Below are positions 4,376-25,545 of a DNA stretch of 64,000 nucleotides, piece by piece. The stretch is from Microbulbifer sp. HZ11 (lineage in GTDB: Bacteria; Pseudomonadota; Gammaproteobacteria; Pseudomonadales; Cellvibrionaceae), in NCBI RefSeq assembly GCF_000708675.1, contig NZ_JELR01000001.1:372001-436000 (forward strand), read 5' to 3'. The position numbers were made by a program, and so were the translations under genes. The notes beneath the pieces were generated by a model that had not been told where the DNA came from, did no database searches, and saw only the letters and a program-made list of their open reading frames with translations. Position 1 is the stretch's first letter; every line of letters starts with the position of its first letter.

Positions 4376-4802
4376 TTTCGACAGACAGTCAAAAGATTCG
4401 CAAAGCATTAATCCCCAGCAGGTGTGGGGTGGATCGGACGGTATGGTAGTCAAAAACGGTGTTGTGCACGCCGGTCCTATGGGCGATGGCGAGCCAGATT
4501 TCGACACCTGGTTGTCGCAGCAGCTCCAGTTCAGCGAGCCGCATCTGGACGACGACGGTTTCTGCGAGCGGGTAATGGCGGACCTACCGCCGGTACCGGC
4601 CAAGCGCGCTGAACGTCGAGCCACCCGCTATCAGTATGCGGCGGTGGTGTTGGCCTCGGCGATTGTCTGCTGGCAATTCCCGCTGCGGGAAGTGTTGGTG
4701 GCCGCGGCAGAACAGAGTATCAGCCTGTATAGCCTGGTGGGCCTCGGTATGCTGGGGTCGCTGGTGGCGATGACTGGCGGCATCATGGCTGCCCGCCGCT
4801 GA
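4368..4802 (+). CDS. Small membrane protein, putative anti-sigma factor
   Basis: 144 residues, start GTG with AGGAGG six bases upstream, overlapping the sigma factor gene by 8 bases. The N-terminal ~85 residues are soluble and acidic (with the segment DTWLSQQLQFSEPHLDDDGF), followed by two hydrophobic helices (about 88-103 and 118-140). A cytoplasmic head plus membrane anchor, coupled to an ECF sigma gene, is the layout of a membrane anti-sigma factor. I see no zinc-binding HxxxCxxC motif, so it would be a non-ZAS type. No family recognised with confidence. Confidence 0.6.
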   Translation: MADFDRQSKDSQSINPQQVWGGSDGMVVKNGVVHAGPMGDGEPDFDTWLSQQLQFSEPHLDDDGFCERVMADLPPVPAKRAERRATRYQYAAVVLASAIVCWQFPLREVLVAAAEQSISLYSLVGLGMLGSLVAMTGGIMAARR

Positions 4803-4811
4803 TTGGCGGGC
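4791..4811 (+). terminator. Hairpin over the end of the sigma-factor operon
   Basis: GCCCGCC (4791-4797) and GGCGGGC (4805-4811) form a 7-bp stem across the stop codon. No T-run follows, so termination here is uncertain. Confidence 0.3.
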
Positions 4812-4851
4812 CCCCTCCGGGAATCAAATCTCTCTTGAACCCCCACCCAAA

Positions 4852-5391
4852 TCAGTTCTGATACTGGCCCAGGCGCAGCTCGCCGCTTTTGGAGACCCGT
4901 ATCGCCGGCAAAATCGACTGCTGCAATCCCAGCTTTGCCTCCAGCTCATAGGGCACGGTATCCCCCTGTAGCCGAACCAGCTCGGTCATGGCCATGATTG
5001 ACCCCATCAGGTTGGCGGACGCATCGACCACTATGGCGTCCTGACCATAGGCCGGGATCACCGGCAGATTATTCGAGGTGCCGGTAATCACCTTGTGCCC
5101 CGCCAGCTTCAGCGTGTAGTACAGCCCGGATAGGGCGAGGGCGCTGTCATTGGGGTTGAATACACGCAGGTGAATACGAAAACGCAGGTCACCACTGTGG
5201 TTATTCGGTAGCGGTTCCACCGCTGTTACCTGGACATCCGGCTTTTCAAAATTCGGCGATAACGAGGCGCATCCCTGAATCAACAGGAATGGTACGAGTA
5301 ACAGCGCCATCATTGCCCTGAGAAGGCCTGCACTAGCGTGAGAACAACGATTCTGTGCCCGGTCGCTTTTCGTGCCCATAGAGGTGTTCAA
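4852..5391 (-). CDS. LEA type 2 (WHy-domain) family lipoprotein
   Basis: About 179 residues with a lipoprotein signal ending LLVPFLLIQGC, then a WHy/LEA14-like beta-sandwich domain: LRFRIHLRVFNPNDSALALSG is the conserved N-P-N strand of this family, followed by YTLKLAG. Homologues are small periplasmic or outer-membrane lipoproteins of unknown role. Start: a TTG at 5391 has AAGGAG six bases upstream; an in-frame ATG at 5415 lacks a Shine-Dalgarno sequence and another ATG lies four codons downstream. The n-region of the signal is unusually long for any of these starts. Convergent with the sigma operon. Confidence 0.78.
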   Translation of the reverse strand: MNTSMGTKSDRAQNRCSHASAGLLRAMMALLLVPFLLIQGCASLSPNFEKPDVQVTAVEPLPNNHSGDLRFRIHLRVFNPNDSALALSGLYYTLKLAGHKVITGTSNNLPVIPAYGQDAIVVDASANLMGSIMAMTELVRLQGDTVPYELEAKLGLQQSILPAIRVSKSGELRLGQYQN

Positions 5392-5495
5392 TATGTACTC
5401 CTTGAGATTTCCCATAACTCGACTACCGCAAGCCTAACCATCTCGCGGGCCCAGGGCTATACTCATGTGGTCGTTTGCACGGGTAAGGATCGCAA

Positions 5496-6422
5496 ATGGA
5501 ATTTGCAGAGCTTCAACCTGAATTACAGCAGTGGATCCGCGATGCGGTGAAAAGTGGGCACCACCTCTCCGTCATGGTGGATGCTTTACTGAAAGCGGGA
5601 TACCAGCCGGGCATCTCGCAGGCGGTAGAGCAGTGCATTCTCGACCACGGGATAGGCCGTCGCGATACCGGTACAGCGCCCGCCCGTCCCGCACACACGC
5701 AAAGTCCTGAGACGTCCGCGCCGTGGATTGTGGCTCAAACCAGCGAGCGCAACGGGCGTTTCCACCGCTTCGCCGCTGATGGTAACCAGATTGACCTGGG
5801 CGACCGGCTGGTGGATGTCCGCTTCGCCATGAAACGCCCTAACATAGTTCTGTTCGCTAACCTGCTGTCTGACAGCGAGTGCGATGCGCTGGTGGCGATG
5901 TCGAAACCCAATCTGAAGCCGTCCCGGGTGGTGAACTCTGAGCGCGGGTCTTTCGATTTACGCGATACCCGTACCAGTTCCGGGACACATTTCGCCCGTG
6001 GTGAAACACCGGTGATCACGGCAATCGAGGCGCGCATCTCGCGCCTACTGGACGTCCCCGAGGAGCGCGGCGAACCGCTGCAGATACTGAATTATCAGGT
6101 CGGCGGGGAGTATCGCCCTCATTACGACTTTTTCAATCCGGAAAAACCGGGCAACCATGGGGTGCTGTGTTCAGGGGGGCAGCGGGTGGGAACCCTGATT
6201 ATGTACCTGAATGATGTGTCTTCCGGTGGTGCAACGGTTTTCCCCCGGGTGGGCCTTGATATTCTTCCGCAGAAAGGCGCTGCGCTGTTCTTTTCCTACA
6301 CCAGTGATTCCGGAGAACTGGATTATCAGACACTCCACGGCGGAAGCCCGGTACTGGCCGGGGAAAAGTGGATCGCGACCAAGTGGCTGCGTACCCAGGA
6401 CTATGCGCCCGGCGTATCCTGA
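5496..6422 (+). CDS. 2OG-Fe(II) oxygenase, prolyl 4-hydroxylase-like
   Basis: 308 residues. The C-terminal ~200 residues form a prolyl-4-hydroxylase-type double-stranded beta-helix: iron ligands H209 and D211 in YRPHYDFF, third ligand H281 in TLHGG, and the 2-oxoglutarate-binding K291 in GEKWIATKW. It probably hydroxylates a prolyl or related residue with O2, Fe(II) and 2-oxoglutarate; substrate unknown. The first ~90 residues are variable and lack a signal peptide, so a cytoplasmic location is likely. The MscS gene follows after 12 bases. Confidence 0.88.
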   Translation: MEFAELQPELQQWIRDAVKSGHHLSVMVDALLKAGYQPGISQAVEQCILDHGIGRRDTGTAPARPAHTQSPETSAPWIVAQTSERNGRFHRFAADGNQIDLGDRLVDVRFAMKRPNIVLFANLLSDSECDALVAMSKPNLKPSRVVNSERGSFDLRDTRTSSGTHFARGETPVITAIEARISRLLDVPEERGEPLQILNYQVGGEYRPHYDFFNPEKPGNHGVLCSGGQRVGTLIMYLNDVSSGGATVFPRVGLDILPQKGAALFFSYTSDSGELDYQTLHGGSPVLAGEKWIATKWLRTQDYAPGVS

Positions 6423-19391: not shown

Positions 19392-20087
19392 TCACTGGGG
19401 TTTAATGGATAAAAACGGGTTGATAATTTTCCCCCAAATGCCTGTCAGCGCCACTGGTGCCTCGACCACCGAGAGGCACAGACACTCCTGATCCTGTGTG
19501 GCGGTAGGGCGGTGGACTTCACCCGGCTCTCGTACCAGGAAGTCGCCGGGCGTGTAAACGCCATCGGCATCGGAGAAACTGCCATAAAGCACCATGGTGA
19601 TTTCACGGCCACGGTGATCGTGCTCGGCCACCTTACTTCCGGGCGCAATTCGATGAAACGACACCTCACGTTCATTTTGCCCAGTTTTCAAGCGGGCTTC
19701 CTTTAGCCCCCTGGACAGTCGGCGCCATTGAAGTACGGGGTTCTCGGCCAGTAACTTTCGCACCACTGGTGGAACCGAAGCAAAGATCGGGTCGCGCAAG
19801 GGGAGGGCACTGCTGCCTGAACCCGCACACTGCTCTTCATCTTTATCCGGTTGTCGATCAATCCGTTGCATCAGTTTGCCGAATGCATCGGGCTCACTGC
19901 TTTCCAATGAAGCACTGGGTGTTGCCGTAGCAAGTAGGCTACCCCCCACGCTATTGAGTAATTTCAGCTGGGCCGCGCATTTCGGACACAGTTGGATGTG
20001 CGCCGCAACCACCAGGCTGTGTGCCCAGTTGAGGCTACCGCTGGCGTATTCCAGCAATAAATTGTTGTCGGGATGGTGGTGAATCAT
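19392..20087 (-). CDS. chrR: ChrR family anti-sigma factor
   Basis: 231 residues. The N-terminal anti-sigma domain has the zinc ligands of ChrR: an early His (H3-H5), then H30-x3-C34-x2-C37 in HIQLCPKC. The C-terminal cupin domain carries EHDHRGREITMVLYG and, later, PGEVHRPTA, the metal-binding residues that the Rhodobacter protein needs for the singlet-oxygen response. It would hold the cognate RpoE inactive until singlet oxygen or organic peroxide triggers release. It follows the sigma gene by 18 bases in one operon. Confidence 0.93.
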   Translation of the reverse strand: MIHHHPDNNLLLEYASGSLNWAHSLVVAAHIQLCPKCAAQLKLLNSVGGSLLATATPSASLESSEPDAFGKLMQRIDRQPDKDEEQCAGSGSSALPLRDPIFASVPPVVRKLLAENPVLQWRRLSRGLKEARLKTGQNEREVSFHRIAPGSKVAEHDHRGREITMVLYGSFSDADGVYTPGDFLVREPGEVHRPTATQDQECLCLSVVEAPVALTGIWGKIINPFLSIKPQ

Positions 20088-20105: not shown

Positions 20106-20726
20106 TTACCTGGAAATGCTACTTTGGAGTTTTTTAAGGGCAAGGCGAACTCTGGATTTCACAGTGCCCAAAGGTAGCCCCAGTTCTTCGGATATTTCAC
20201 TGTGGGATTTGCCCTCTACATAGGCTTTTTCGATCACGTGACTCTGCTCTGGGGGCAGCCCCTGGAGCCCGGCGGCAATGGCGTGCTGGTTGCGCGCCTG
20301 CTGCAGGTACACCAGGGGTTGTTCGTCCTGGCTATCATCCCAGATGTCTTCTACGTTCAGGCTCTCATCGGTTGCAGGCTGGCGGTTGCTCTTGCGCAAG
20401 GCGTCAATACGACAGTTCCTCATAATGGTAAAAACCCAGGTGCTTGCCGCTGCCTTATCAGGCCGAAAAGTGGGGGCCTTGGTCCATACTCGGAACATGA
20501 CTTCCTGAACCAGTTCATCTGCTGCCTCGGGCGCTGAGCTCTGGCCGCCTCGACTGAACTGAAAGCCGCGGATCAGGGGCGCGAAGTGGCTGAACAGGCG
20601 CTCAAATGCGCGCCGATCCCGGTCGCGCCCGACGCGCACCAGAAGGCCGCTCCATTCATCGTCTCTAGTGTGGTCTGGTACCTGCACGCTGCTGATTCCG
20701 CCCTTATTGGGATGTGTTGCGGCCAT
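20106..20726 (-). CDS. rpoE: ECF sigma factor, RpoE of the ChrR-controlled (singlet oxygen) group
   Basis: 206 residues. Region 2: ADELVQEVMFRVWTKAPTF and TWVFTIMRNCRIDALRK; region 4: LPPEQSHVIEKAYVEGKSH and the helix-turn-helix SEISEELGLPLGTVKSRV. Pairing with chrR places it in the ECF11 group that responds to singlet oxygen. The start at 20726 is the first residue after an ECF-type promoter in the same frame; a longer open frame up to 21179 would run through that promoter and into the divergent gene, so I reject it. Expected to drive its own operon and the divergent one. Confidence 0.92.
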   Translation of the reverse strand: MAATHPNKGGISSVQVPDHTRDDEWSGLLVRVGRDRDRRAFERLFSHFAPLIRGFQFSRGGQSSAPEAADELVQEVMFRVWTKAPTFRPDKAAASTWVFTIMRNCRIDALRKSNRQPATDESLNVEDIWDDSQDEQPLVYLQQARNQHAIAAGLQGLPPEQSHVIEKAYVEGKSHSEISEELGLPLGTVKSRVRLALKKLQSSISR

Positions 20727-20777: not shown

Positions 20778-20805
20778 TGTACGCCTGCAGTCTCTAGCTG
20801 GATCA
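20778..20805 (-). promoter_or_regulatory. ECF11-type promoter of rpoE-chrR
   Basis: Read on the minus strand: TGATCC (20805-20800), 16 bases, then CGTACA (20783-20778). About 50 bases before the rpoE start. The same ATCC-N16-CGTA pattern occurs in the divergent promoter. Confidence 0.75.
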
Positions 20806-20860
20806 CAGAATTTGAGTGGCGATTGATCATCTGGCGAGAGGGGAAGATCTGTTGCCCCGC

Positions 20861-20888
20861 GAATCCAAATCGATGACGCGGGCGTAGA
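20861..20888 (+). promoter_or_regulatory. ECF11-type promoter of the lipid-modification operon
   Basis: GAATCC (20861-20866), 16 bases, then CGTAGA (20883-20888), about 40 bases before the first gene at 20928. It matches the rpoE promoter in spacing and in both core elements. Confidence 0.72.
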
Positions 20889-20927: not shown

Positions 20928-21377
20928 ATGTCTCAAGCCCTCACACGTCTTAAAGCCTTGTACGCGGATTTTTTGGCCGCAGATGCGCGCTCGATTGCGG
21001 ATCTGTACGCGGCCGATATCGTATTTCGCGATCCGGTGCACGAGATTGTCGGTCTGGAGGCGATGCAGGCGTACTTTACTGGTGTTTCGACCAATCTCCG
21101 TGAGTGCCGGTTTGAGTTTGACCGTGTAGTCGAGGGTGGTACCTGGCACAGCCTCTGGTGGACCATGCATTACCGTCATCCAAAATTGAAAAATGGGGCT
21201 CCATTGCAGCTGCGAGGCGCTTCAATAATCTGCATAGATCCGGAAATCGACCGGGTAAGCTTCCATGAGGATGTCTACGACCTCGGTGCCATGATCTATG
21301 AGCAGGTGCCACTTCTGGGGGCTGTTATTCGACAAATCAAACAGCGTCTGGGAACGAGCGGAGGCGCCTGTGGCTGA
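20928..21377 (+). CDS. Nuclear transport factor 2 family (SnoaL-like) protein
   Basis: 149 residues with the NTF2-like cone fold pattern: an N-terminal helix containing LYADFLAADARSIADLYA, then IVFRDPVHEIVGLEAMQAYF and TWHSLWWTMHYRH. Proteins like this are small ligand-binding or isomerase-type scaffolds; no catalytic residues can be assigned. It is the first gene of a five-gene operon controlled by the RpoE-ChrR type promoter and overlaps the next gene by 8 bases. A role in lipid oxidation or sensing is inference from context. Confidence 0.88.
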   Translation: MSQALTRLKALYADFLAADARSIADLYAADIVFRDPVHEIVGLEAMQAYFTGVSTNLRECRFEFDRVVEGGTWHSLWWTMHYRHPKLKNGAPLQLRGASIICIDPEIDRVSFHEDVYDLGAMIYEQVPLLGAVIRQIKQRLGTSGGACG

Positions 21378-22158
21378 TTCCGTGCAATGGACCGACAAAC
21401 TGAGTATCTGGATCACAGGTGCGGGTTCTGGCATCGGTGCTGCGTTAGCGCGACAGCTCATCGCCGAGGGGCACTTCGTTATCATCAGTGGGCGAACCCG
21501 TGCGCCTCTGCTGACCATTCAACAGTCGGCGCCCAAGCGGGTGAGGGTGCTTGACTGTGATGTGGGAGATGACCGCTCCATGGCCGCTTCCGGAGAATTG
21601 CTCGGGGAGGTAACCGATCAGCTGGATTTGGTAATCGCGTGTGCGGGCACCTGTGAATACGACGATGGTTTGACCCTGGATAGTGCCAGCTATCGCCGTG
21701 TATTTGACACCAATTTTTTCGGTGTGGTGAATACCCTCAGGGTCGCACTACCGTTATTGGCCAGCAGTCGTGCTCCGGTTTTTGTGGCTGTGGGGAGCCT
21801 GTCCTCGTTAGTTGGGTTTCCACGAGCCGAAGCCTACGGTGCTTCGAAAGCGGCGGTCGACTATTTCCTGCAGTCGGTACGCGCCGACACTTCGCTGGTC
21901 CCCCTGCGTACGGTTTTAGTGCGCCCGGGCTTTATTGATACGCCGCTGACGCGAGCGAACGATTTCGAAATGCCATTCCTGATGAATCCAGAGCAGGCTG
22001 CGCGGCGTATTCTTCGAGGTCTGGAAAAGAAAAAATCCATCATCGACTTTCCCAGGCGGTTAAGTTGGCCTTTGCGCCTATTGCGATGTTGCTCACCTGT
22101 CTGGTTCAGGCTAATCGCGCCTCGCTTAACAAGAATTCGTCATCTAAGGAGAGGCTGA
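21370..22158 (+). CDS. SDR family NAD(P)-dependent oxidoreductase
   Basis: 262 residues starting at a GTG with GGAGG five bases upstream. Rossmann nucleotide motif T16-G-A-G-S-G-I-G23 and the catalytic Y156-x3-K160 (YGASK) with an upstream Ser in VGSLSS are intact. A hydrophobic C-terminal region (after about residue 225) may attach it to the membrane. It probably reduces or oxidises a lipid-linked carbonyl or alcohol. The gene overlaps both neighbours (8 bases before; TGATG after), so expression is coupled. Confidence 0.9.
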   Translation: MADSVQWTDKLSIWITGAGSGIGAALARQLIAEGHFVIISGRTRAPLLTIQQSAPKRVRVLDCDVGDDRSMAASGELLGEVTDQLDLVIACAGTCEYDDGLTLDSASYRRVFDTNFFGVVNTLRVALPLLASSRAPVFVAVGSLSSLVGFPRAEAYGASKAAVDYFLQSVRADTSLVPLRTVLVRPGFIDTPLTRANDFEMPFLMNPEQAARRILRGLEKKKSIIDFPRRLSWPLRLLRCCSPVWFRLIAPRLTRIRHLRRG

Positions 22159-23438
22159 TGCGTATCGCAATCATCGGTAGTGGAATTTCTGGCCTGACAT
22201 CTGCCTATCTCTTGCACGAAAAGCACGAGATTGAACTGTTCGAGGCGGATTCACGCCTCGGTGGCCACACAGCGACGGTTGACGTCACAGAAGGGGACCG
22301 AACCATTGCGGTAGACACGGGCTTTATCGTATTCAACGATTGGACTTACCCGAACTTCATCAAGCTTATGCAGCGGCTGGGTGTGGAAAGTCAGCCCACT
22401 GATATGGGATTCAGCGTCTCTGCGCCGGCCTCCGCTTGCGGTCGTCAGCGTGAAATTGAGTACGCAGGTAATAATCTCAACGCCATGTTTGCCCAGCGCA
22501 GAAATCTACTGGACGGTGGCCACTGGCGGATGTTGCGGGATATAGTCCGTTTCAATCGCGATGCAGTAGCGGATTGGAAAAATGGCGCCCTGGGCGAAAC
22601 GACCACCTTGGGAAGTTATCTCCAGGTCAACGGTTACTCTTCCGAGTTTGCGTCGCGATATCTTGTGCCGATGGGGTCCGCAATCTGGTCAGCCAGCATG
22701 TCCCGAATGCTGGATTTTTCCGTCGATTTCTTCGTGCGCTTTTTCTACAACCATGGATTGTTTAACCTGTTTAATCGACCGCAGTGGCGGGTGATCAAAG
22801 GTGGGTCTCGCAGCTATATCACGCCCATGGTGCAGGGGTTTTCGGAGCGCATCCATCTCAGTAGCCCGGTGCAAAGGGTCATGCGCATGGGGCAGCATGT
22901 GGAAGTTGAGTGCCGGGCGCCCTCTGGTGAAACTCGTTCTGGGTGTTTCGACCAGGTGATATTCGCCTGTCACTCAGATCAGGCACTCAGCCTATTGGGC
23001 GATGCGGATGCGTTGGAGAGCGATATTCTGGGGCACATCCCCTATGAGCAAAACTCTGTGGTTCTACATACTGACCATACCCTGTTACCGAAGCGGAAGT
23101 CGGCGTGGGCCAGCTGGAACTATCGTTTGCAGGAAGAGGATTCAGTACTGCCTGCCTTGACGTACAACATGAATATTCTTCAGCGCCTGAGGACGGAAAA
23201 AACCTATTGTGTCACTTTGAACGCTGATGATCTGATTGCCCCGACAAAGGTGATCGGAAAATTTGAATATGCACATCCGCAATTTTCCGTACAGGGAAAT
23301 AGCGCCCAATCCCGCTGGGCGGAGATCAATGGGGTGAATCGCACCTGGTTTTGCGGAGCCTACTGGGCCAACGGTTTTCACGAGGACGGTGTGGTGAGTG
23401 CTATACGTGTTGCAAGTGCGCTGGGAGTCGAATTCTGA
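22158..23438 (+). CDS. FAD-dependent oxidoreductase (amine oxidase/desaturase-like)
   Basis: 426 residues, start ATG at a TGATG overlap with AAGGAG nearby. N-terminal FAD motif IAIIGSGISGLTSAYLL (GxGxxG) then LFEADSRLGGHTATVDV, the arginine/glycine strand typical of amine oxidase and phytoene-desaturase-like flavoproteins; C-terminal GAYWANGFHEDGVVSAI closes the FAD site. This subgroup (NAD/FAD-binding proteins beside CFA synthase and DUF1365) is thought to act on fatty acyl chains. No signal peptide. Confidence 0.9.
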   Translation: MRIAIIGSGISGLTSAYLLHEKHEIELFEADSRLGGHTATVDVTEGDRTIAVDTGFIVFNDWTYPNFIKLMQRLGVESQPTDMGFSVSAPASACGRQREIEYAGNNLNAMFAQRRNLLDGGHWRMLRDIVRFNRDAVADWKNGALGETTTLGSYLQVNGYSSEFASRYLVPMGSAIWSASMSRMLDFSVDFFVRFFYNHGLFNLFNRPQWRVIKGGSRSYITPMVQGFSERIHLSSPVQRVMRMGQHVEVECRAPSGETRSGCFDQVIFACHSDQALSLLGDADALESDILGHIPYEQNSVVLHTDHTLLPKRKSAWASWNYRLQEEDSVLPALTYNMNILQRLRTEKTYCVTLNADDLIAPTKVIGKFEYAHPQFSVQGNSAQSRWAEINGVNRTWFCGAYWANGFHEDGVVSAIRVASALGVEF

Positions 23439-24175
23439 TGCGAAGTGGCATCTACTCCGGGTGGATTCAACATCGACGATTTTCGCCGAGAAGCCACAGC
23501 TTCCGTTATCGGGGATTTATGGTTTATGCCTTTCTCGATGAAATTCCCGAGATTCTCGCACAATCCTGGGCTTGGTCTGCATCCTCATGTTCGCCTGCGC
23601 GTTTCTGTCGTGAAGATTTTTATGGTGATCCGTCCGTCTCCCTCGACCAGGCAGTGCGGGATAGGGTGGAATCCGCATTGGGGAAACGGCCTGCGGGCCC
23701 TATCGCATTTCTCGCCAACTGGCGCTATTTTGGTTACAACATGAATCCCATCAGCATTTACTACTGTTTTGACTCCTCGGGAGAGCAGGTCGAAACACTG
23801 TTGGTGGATGTCCACAACACGCCGTGGCAAGAGCGTCATGGCTATGTTTTGCCTGTTAATCGCGGCCGAGTACAGCGTGCTATCTTCGATAAAGCGCTGC
23901 ATGTATCTCCTTTTATGCCTTTTGAACAGACGTATCACTGGCGCAGTACCACGCCGGGGAACCGCCTGACGGTGAGTATCTGTCTTGAACAGGCGGGTGA
24001 ACGTGTGTTTGATGCCTGTATGTCGTTGCAACGGGAGGAAATAAATTCCAAGGTTCTCGCGCGCAAGTTGATCCGTTACCCACTGTTTACCGTAAAAGTA
24101 ATCGCTGCCATCTACTGGGAAGCGTTCAGACTCTTGCTCAAGCGGGTGCCCTTATATTCTCACCCACAGCGTTGA
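23438..24175 (+). CDS. DUF1365 domain-containing protein
   Basis: 245 residues, start ATG overlapping the previous stop (TGATG). DUF1365 landmarks: an N-terminal IYSGWIQHRRFSP with the H-x-R-x2-P block, FRYRGFMVYAFLDEI, then NWRYFGYNMNPISIYYCFD, and VDVHNTPWQERHGYVL. The family is almost always found between a FAD oxidoreductase and a cyclopropane-fatty-acid-synthase-like gene, as here. Molecular function is unknown; a role in acyl-chain modification is inference from that conserved gene order. Confidence 0.92.
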   Translation: MRSGIYSGWIQHRRFSPRSHSFRYRGFMVYAFLDEIPEILAQSWAWSASSCSPARFCREDFYGDPSVSLDQAVRDRVESALGKRPAGPIAFLANWRYFGYNMNPISIYYCFDSSGEQVETLLVDVHNTPWQERHGYVLPVNRGRVQRAIFDKALHVSPFMPFEQTYHWRSTTPGNRLTVSICLEQAGERVFDACMSLQREEINSKVLARKLIRYPLFTVKVIAAIYWEAFRLLLKRVPLYSHPQR

Positions 24176-24228: not shown

Positions 24229-25545
24229 ATGAATTCTGTGCAGAAAGAAATGTTACACACCGCCAGTCCCTCAGTGCCTGCTGAGGGGAAGAATGTTCCG
24301 GGTGGAAACGTTGAGCTCCAGTGGATTGAGCGCTTGGCTAGAAAACTTGTGCTGGCCAAGCTGGCCAGGATTGACAAGGGAACCCTGTTCGTACACGAAC
24401 AATTTGGCGAAAAGTATGTGGCGCAGTTTGGTCAGTCTCCTGGATTTTCTGAAATCGAGGCGCATATTCATGTGCGCCACCCGTCCACTTATACCCAGGT
24501 GCTTTTGAGCGGTACGATCGGGTCTGGCGAGGCGTATATGGAGTCCGCCTGGCATTCGCCTGACCTGGTTCAGGTAATTCGTCTGATGGTTGCGAACATC
24601 AAACTGCTGCAGGACCTGGATTCCCGCTGGAGTTTTCTGCACAAGCTAGTTATTAAAGCCCTGCATCGACTGAATGCCAATTCACTGCGAGGCTCTAAAA
24701 AAAATATTGCTGCCCATTACGATCTGGGTAACGAATTTTTTGGGCTGTTTCTCGACCCCACCATGCTTTACTCGAGCGCGGTTTTCCCGTCTGAGCGGGC
24801 GAGCCTTCTGGAAGCTTCTGAGTTTAAAATGGCCAGGATCTGCCGAAAGCTGCAGTTAAAGCCATCGGATCACCTACTGGAAATTGGTACTGGGTGGGGC
24901 GGTATGGCGGTGTACGCGGCCAAACACTTTGGTTGCAGAGTGACCACGACCACCATATCCCGAGAGCAATATGCTCATGCCAAGGAGTGGGTCGAACGCG
25001 AAGGTCTGTCAGACCGCATCACACTTTTACTGAAGGATTACAGGGAGCTGAATGGTCAGTACGACAAGATTGTTTCAATTGAGATGATTGAGGCGGTTGG
25101 CCATCAGTACTATGGAACATTCTTCAACCGGTGTAGCGCTTTGCTGAAGGATGATGGTCTGATGGTCATGCAGGCAATCACGATTCAGGATCAACGTTTC
25201 GAGTCGTACAAAAACAGTGTGGATTTCATTCAGCGCTATATCTTTCCAGGTGGTTGCCTGCCCTCCAACCAGGTAGTCGCGAATAATATCGCTGAGCACA
25301 CAGATATGCAGATAGTGGGACTGGACGATATCACCTTCGATTATGCGAAAACACTTGCTTCATGGCGGGACAAATTTTTCCAGCATATCGATGAAATCCG
25401 GGCTCAGGGGTTCGATCAGCGCTTCATCAATATGTGGGAATTCTACCTTTGCTATTGCGAGGGCGGATTTCTGGAGCGTGCCATCAGTACGGCACAGTTC
25501 ACTTTCGCCAAACCGCGCTGCCGAAAGCTTCCCGAACTGCACTGA
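24229..25545 (+). CDS. Cyclopropane-fatty-acyl-phospholipid synthase family methyltransferase
   Basis: 438 residues. SAM-binding motif E218-I-G-T-G-W-G-G in LLEIGTGWGGMAVYAA; CFA-synthase landmarks AAHYDLGNEFFGLFLD, TMLYSSAVF, TTTISREQYAHAKE, YDKIVSIEMIEAVGHQYY and RYIFPGGCLPS. It transfers a methyl/methylene group from SAM to unsaturated phospholipid acyl chains in the membrane. An in-frame TTG at 24172 overlapping the preceding stop is an alternative start; I prefer the ATG at 24229 because the extra 19 residues look non-native. Last gene of the ECF-controlled operon. Confidence 0.93.
   Translation: MNSVQKEMLHTASPSVPAEGKNVPGGNVELQWIERLARKLVLAKLARIDKGTLFVHEQFGEKYVAQFGQSPGFSEIEAHIHVRHPSTYTQVLLSGTIGSGEAYMESAWHSPDLVQVIRLMVANIKLLQDLDSRWSFLHKLVIKALHRLNANSLRGSKKNIAAHYDLGNEFFGLFLDPTMLYSSAVFPSERASLLEASEFKMARICRKLQLKPSDHLLEIGTGWGGMAVYAAKHFGCRVTTTTISREQYAHAKEWVEREGLSDRITLLLKDYRELNGQYDKIVSIEMIEAVGHQYYGTFFNRCSALLKDDGLMVMQAITIQDQRFESYKNSVDFIQRYIFPGGCLPSNQVVANNIAEHTDMQIVGLDDITFDYAKTLASWRDKFFQHIDEIRAQGFDQRFINMWEFYLCYCEGGFLERAISTAQFTFAKPRCRKLPELH

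Follow-up and report, generated by a model that had tools for sequence, protein, structure and literature searches.

The window, a stretch of 64,000 nucleotides from Microbulbifer sp. HZ11, contains two gene groups that diverge from a gap of 201 bases between the start codons of rpoE (ATG 20726) and ntf2 (ATG 20928). On the minus strand lie rpoE (20106-20726), encoding an ECF sigma factor with Sigma70_r2 and r4_2 domains, and chrR (19392-20087), encoding a zinc and cupin anti-sigma factor. The plus strand holds five genes: ntf2 (20928-21377; SnoaL_2/NTF2-like protein, PF12680), sdr (21370-22158; short-chain dehydrogenase/reductase, PF00106), which overlaps ntf2 and for which a GTG start was picked by eye, and homologues of ufaD (22158-23438; FAD amine-oxidase-like desaturase, PF01593), ufaO (23438-24175; DUF1365, PF07103) and ufaM (24229-25545; SAM-dependent fatty-acyl methylase of the CFA/CMAS family, PF02353). 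What the first-pass annotation had called a five-gene lipid operon can thus be given a name: it is a furan-fatty-acid set (UfaD, UfaO and UfaM homologues) together with an NTF2-like protein and an SDR. The ufa assignment goes via protein family, gene order and the published table of P. syringae homologues.

This layout is stable within the genus. The groups chrR-rpoE and ntf2-sdr-ufaD-ufaO-ufaM are divergent in all 41 Microbulbifer loci with rpoE, and the order ufaD-ufaO-ufaM is kept in each of them (in L072 ufaM lies 1.7 kb off). The genes rpoE and ufaD also occur together: ufaD is present in 41/41 genomes with rpoE, and six of the seven genomes lacking rpoE lack ufaD as well. The seventh (L282, G033) is an 80% complete Microbulbifer genome that has no rpoE match and whose ufaD is distant, at 49% identity; a single poor motif match (TGATAT) lies in the 9 kb examined there. 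In a number of loci of the same order (L284-L286, L288-L289, L294-L295, L301, L305, L342) ufaD comes first after the divergent gap, and neither ntf2 nor a close homologue of sdr was detected ahead of it.

The sigma factor has R. sphaeroides RpoE (2q1z_A, E 5.4e-37) as its best relative among solved structures, the next one reaching 4e-12. ChrR scores 174.8 bits against TIGR02451 (cut-off 124.5) and corresponds to the structures 2z2s and 2q1z. Its zinc and cupin residues had been described as intact, and this holds throughout the genus: the eight ligands listed in the published ECF11 review (H6, H31, C35 and C38 of the anti-sigma domain, R. sphaeroides numbering, and H141, H143, E147 and H177 of the cupin domain) are each found in 41/41 loci. 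Moreover, the autoregulatory TGATCC-N16-CGTA promoter expected of ECF11 systems is present as a sequence before rpoE. Judged by its sequence, the system is an RpoE-ChrR pair of the ECF11 type, the group name being taken from the closest relative.

Divergent sites between rpoE and ntf2

Both sides of the gap carry a candidate ECF11-type promoter. The site of rpoE-chrR (20805-20778, minus strand) reads TGATCC (20805-20800), N16, CGTACA (20783-20778), with 53 bases from CGTA to the rpoE ATG. The site of the operon (20861-20888, plus strand) reads GAATCC-N16-CGTAGA, with 41 bases from CGTA to the ntf2 ATG. The coordinates reported earlier are correct, each spacer is exactly 16 bases and the gap estimated at about 200 bases measures 201. 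The -35 element GAATCC of the operon side is weak in this window, being two letters from TGATCC; in 26 of the 41 Microbulbifer loci it is TGATCC or TAATCC.

The agreement of spacing and cores within a single genome had been presented as strong evidence that one sigma factor reads both sites. The one-sigma reading stands, but the match by itself carries less weight than was claimed: a scan of all 4.2 Mb of the genome for ATCC-N15-17-CGTA gives 265 occurrences, compared with 164 when the pattern is reversed as a control, and we therefore rejected the bare core as evidence on its own. With longer patterns the counts are 21 against 2 for TGATCC-N15-17-CGTA, and 37 against 5 for DRATCC-N16-CGTA, four of these 37 being located within 3.3 kb at the rpoE-ufa locus. 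After dinucleotide shuffling of the 201-base gap, comparable matches on both strands (at least four of six letters in the -35 and an exact CGTA) appeared in 2 of 3000 shuffles. Because the bare core is common in the genome, the single-genome case is moderate and the case for the promoter pair rests on comparison.

With this match criterion and a 16-base spacer, a site is found upstream of both rpoE and ntf2 in 41/41 Microbulbifer loci (seven of the 48 genus genomes, without rpoE, were left out). Spacings other than 16 (8 to 24) match in 0 to 9 of the 41 loci, reversed and complemented motifs in none of them, and shuffles of the loci yield a mean of 1.03 and 0.85 matches of 41 for the two sides. 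Three species have approximately 2.5 kb between rpoE and ntf2 (L061, L065, L068), and there each site still lies 33-36 bases from its own gene; the gap of L061 is filled by an ORF of 627 residues (4486-6369). Outside the genus both sites occur in 22 of 39 adjacent divergent loci (1/2, 3/9 and 18/28 in the three samples), including Marinomonas, Haliea and a Cellvibrionales genome. That one sigma factor would read both sides of the gap is well supported, since the pair is conserved in 41/41 loci, follows the motif published for this sigma family and recurs outside the genus.

A site within the coding sequence of ufaO

A third site, in addition to the two of the first-pass annotation, lies near the end of ufaO, within its final 107 bases and 134 bases upstream of ufaM (24069-24096, plus strand). 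It has the exact motif TGATCC-N16-CGTAAA, and we read it as a putative intragenic sigma promoter for ufaM. The site is present at the same codons in 35 of the 41 Microbulbifer loci, the other six having no site at that position; spacings of 12-15 and 17-20 were found there in none of the 41.

A coding-region site can also arise as a by-product of constraint on protein or codons (amino acids, translation speed, RNA structure). In that case only the two intergenic sites would be promoters and ufaM would be read from the operon promoter only. Some features fit with this: the peptide LI[RQ][YF]P..TVK is fairly conserved, ACC and ATC are favoured codons for Thr and Ile, and the operon genes are mostly close together. 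Codon usage, however, speaks against it. Wherever the -10 element contains a Val codon (37 species), that codon is GTA without exception, whereas GTA makes up 16% of the Val codons elsewhere in the four genes and the next of the 58 Val columns reaches 40%. The Ile codon is ATC in 37/38 and the Thr codon ACC in 37/41 Microbulbifer loci. Parsimony counts on a tree built from the sdr, ufaD and ufaM proteins give 0 and 3 changes for the third bases of the Val and Thr codons. These rank first and second among 213 fourfold columns, for which the median is 14; the column of the Ile codon ranks first of 46. The Pro codon in the spacer varies freely in the meantime (17 steps, rank 182 of 213). In L226 and L229 Thr is replaced by Cys or Ser, but the letters C-GTA are still kept.

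Shuffling of synonymous codons leads to the same picture: 1.14 exact sites would be expected in the 41 ufaO genes against 33 observed, whereas ufaD and ufaM show no clear excess (the largest is ufaD, with 3/41 seen against 1.2 expected). Furthermore, other lineages place their site elsewhere in ufaO. Two main positions exist, the Microbulbifer one in 43 loci (8 of them outside the genus) and a second one, lying 300-390 bases short of the ufaO end, in 13; not a single locus has both. Because codon usage is frozen at the third site, it is the DNA and not the protein alone that is kept there, and we consider a mere by-product of coding constraint improbable.

Beyond the genus, occurrence of such sites was compared between loci with and without a linked rpoE-chrR ('unlinked' meaning that none lies within the fetched stretch; rpoE may be located elsewhere in the genome). 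In a first sample, sense sites in the interval from the ufaO start to ufaM were found in 10/28 linked against 3/84 unlinked loci (p 4e-5). In an order-level sample the counts are 13/29 against 7/30, a difference that is not significant (p 0.10), and synonymous shuffles of ufaO give 12 sites seen and 2.4 expected for linked loci, and 7 seen and 0.7 expected for unlinked ones. Pooling of the samples results in 23/57 linked against 10/114 unlinked loci, with the reservation that all counts except the parsimony test ignore kinship and that some species may occur in more than one of the class, named and order samples. Antisense sites from ufaO to ufaM are found in 0/153 and 0/59 loci. At the second position, the linked loci with a permissive protein have the Asp codon GAT in 11/11 (background 55%) and the Arg codon CGT in 10/11 (background 22%).

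Left out of these counts were 6/159 loci without ufaO and ufaM in order, 1/20 loci of the Pseudomonas group (L203, at a contig end) and 1/60 order-level regions without ufaM (L299, which does hold a site at the second position). The remaining 19 Pseudomonas-group loci have no intragenic ufaO site. Likewise L208, a relative of P. syringae, has a site before phrB and none inside ufaO, even though P. syringae has the sigma factor. For P. syringae itself, many ChIP peaks of the homologous sigma factor are reported in coding DNA, and the authors of that account caution that these are possibly non-functional. The codon evidence suggests that at least the ufaO coding-region site does matter.

A putative fourth site (GAATCC-N16-CGTA, 21984-22009), in the SDR gene before ufaD, looks like chance and was rejected: 3/41 loci have a site up to 250 bases from ufaD, and these sites are at differing places. 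A ufaO site at alignment column 80 (L194, L237, L241) may be driven by the protein and was given no weight.

Lipid product, trigger and proposed circuit

In R. sphaeroides, UfaD, UfaO and UfaM are reported to suffice for a methylated furan fatty acid, and the same is described for the R. palustris homologues. Counterparts of the SDR, FAD, DUF1365 and CFA-like genes in R. sphaeroides and P. syringae are members of the published core regulon. By analogy, the product of the operon would be a methylated furan fatty acid. The operon might also make ordinary cyclopropane or other modified lipids instead. The methylase does belong to the CMAS/CFA family and its closest solved structures are CFA synthases; the ufaM product is moreover the sole full-length CMAS match in the genome, so that it could be the only CFA synthase of this organism. 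In addition, Biformimicrobium ophioploci, described beside Microbulbifer, is reported to have C17:0 cyclo among its major fatty acids, and our search of the open-licence literature found no report joining Microbulbifer and furan fatty acid. Against this, the methylase falls short of the NCBIfam CFA-synthase cut-offs (284.5 bits where 400 are required, and 281 where 600 are), the UfaD and UfaO homologues adjoin it as in R. palustris, and Halomonas ufaM expressed in E. coli reportedly gave an intermediate of furan fatty acid. A cyclopropane or other non-furan product therefore seems unlikely to us.

As for the trigger, ChrR had earlier been taken to respond to singlet oxygen or organic peroxides. 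The homologues in R. sphaeroides and P. syringae are reported to answer singlet oxygen and t-butyl hydroperoxide. Singlet oxygen would be the leading candidate here, but not the only one, because the ChrR homologue of V. cholerae is described as answering nitric oxide as well.

Putting these elements together, we hold with good confidence to a reading in which an RpoE-ChrR unit acts on three promoters at the locus (rpoE-chrR, the ufa operon and an internal one for ufaM) with a furan lipid as output. In the unstressed cell, ChrR, with its zinc and its cupin-like sensor domain, would hold RpoE. Singlet oxygen, an organic peroxide or a related oxidant would disable ChrR and free RpoE, which may then take RNA polymerase to promoters of the form TGATCC-like-N16-CGTA, three of them at this locus. 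Reading of the rpoE-chrR promoter would amount to positive autoregulation, with newly made ChrR as a built-in shut-off. Reading of the divergent side would produce the ntf2-sdr-ufaD-ufaO-ufaM message, and the promoter in the end of ufaO would add a message that carries only ufaM. Together, UfaM, UfaD and UfaO would convert vaccenate chains of the membrane, by methylation, desaturation and oxygenation, into a methylated furan fatty acid, which is thought to be protective. The extra promoter would presumably raise the first enzyme of the path, UfaM, above the later two.

A broader proposal, to which we give an even chance, is that bacteria with an operon of the order ufaD-ufaO-ufaM, ending in ufaM, have repeatedly evolved a sigma-E promoter within the ufaO codons, in either of two alternative places. 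Stress would then make a separate ufaM message, methylation would be uncoupled from the furan-forming steps, and 11-methyl and furan fatty acid could be set independently. One effect may be to adjust the feedback of lipids on the breakdown of ChrR that has been proposed for Rhodobacter.

The known systems show which parts are shared (PMC5507510, PMC4336711, PMC7380195, PMC6852236, PMC11976125, PMC9758184, PMC11426391, PMC12089945). R. sphaeroides sigma-E/ChrR (RSP1092-1093, with RSP1091-1087 and ufaM RSP2144; ECF11) has the same kind of sigma and ChrR-type anti-sigma factor, the eight ligands and the core-regulon ufa genes. There, however, ufaM lies at a separate locus (RSP_2144, numbered next to phrB, RSP_2143), whereas in Microbulbifer it ends the ufaD-ufaO operon and is preceded by the intragenic site. 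P. syringae PSPTO_1043-1042 shares TGATCC-N16-CGTA (by ChIP-seq), the response to singlet oxygen and t-BOOH, and the sdr-ufaD-ufaO-cfa homologues. It differs in that the sigma gene and the operon are at separate loci, with a site before phrB and, in its relative L208, none in ufaO. RpoE2-ChrR of Shewanella oneidensis has the same motif, with two starts mapped by primer extension, and a site before ybgA of a ybgA-phrB-cfa operon, just as before ybgA here; it differs in having one long operon with phrB and cfa, for which the description at hand names no internal promoter. The LitR-LOV light operon of P. putida and P. mendocina contains the same lipid genes including ufaM, but in P. mendocina these are controlled by a sigma-70 promoter and the LitR repressor, and the 19 Pseudomonas-group loci lack an ECF site in ufaO. 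That the Microbulbifer pair is a coincidence, and that transcription of rpoE and the operon depends on housekeeping sigma-70 or on a LitR/MerR light regulator, like that of the homologous P. mendocina operon, would agree with the common bare core but is highly improbable in view of the 41/41 conservation at spacing 16 and of the same motif at published targets of homologous sigma factors.

The sigma factor, anti-sigma factor, motif and target genes are thus already known, and the divergent pair is a new member. It carries the well-studied singlet-oxygen regulon over to Microbulbifer and names a likely lipid product. The candidate promoter inside ufaO appears to be the new part, because no earlier report of it was found in the portions of the open-licence literature at hand. 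If confirmed, scans restricted to intergenic DNA would miss a conserved part of the regulon. Whether ECF sigma factor sites in coding regions function could also be tested cleanly at the ufaO site, because its codons retain the promoter sequence and synonymous positions elsewhere drift. With regard to pathway control, it leads to a testable claim: the first enzyme of the furan path would have its own stress promoter.

The photolyase operon and other genomic sites

The core regulon was reportedly defined by Dufour in 2008. Among its genes, the motif is found at the ufa operon in 41/41 Microbulbifer loci, and at the photolyase operon in this genome and in 16/41 overall. A single photolyase gene is present in the genome, and its operon opens with a ybgA-like gene whose product has 2-thiouracil desulfurase and DUF1722 domains. 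TCATCC-N16-CGTAGA is located 47 bases upstream of the ATG of this ybgA-like gene (G000:C1:1757372-1757399, minus strand; L281 3373-3400). A comparison of 47 of the 48 genus genomes (G033, without a ybgA match, was left out) shows a site with a 16-base spacer within 150 bases of the operon's first gene in those 16 of the 41 genomes with rpoE, against 0/6 without rpoE; the operon lacks the site in the other 25 genomes with rpoE. Other spacings (12 to 20) are found there in 0 or 1 genome. The ybgA-photolyase operon is likely a further target of RpoE elsewhere in the genome, and with this site the idea of a regulon confined to the rpoE-ufa locus was removed.

Most of the other TGATCC-N15-17-CGTA occurrences were rejected as targets: 18 of the 21 are inside ORFs of at least 120 residues. 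The remaining three are the rpoE site, one located 238 bases before another ORF, and one before a MipA-family gene. The last of these, an intergenic TGATCC-N15-CGTA 46 bases before a DUF2141 + MipA gene (L008 1501-1525; G000:C1:958626-958650, minus strand), could be a target but has a spacing of 15.
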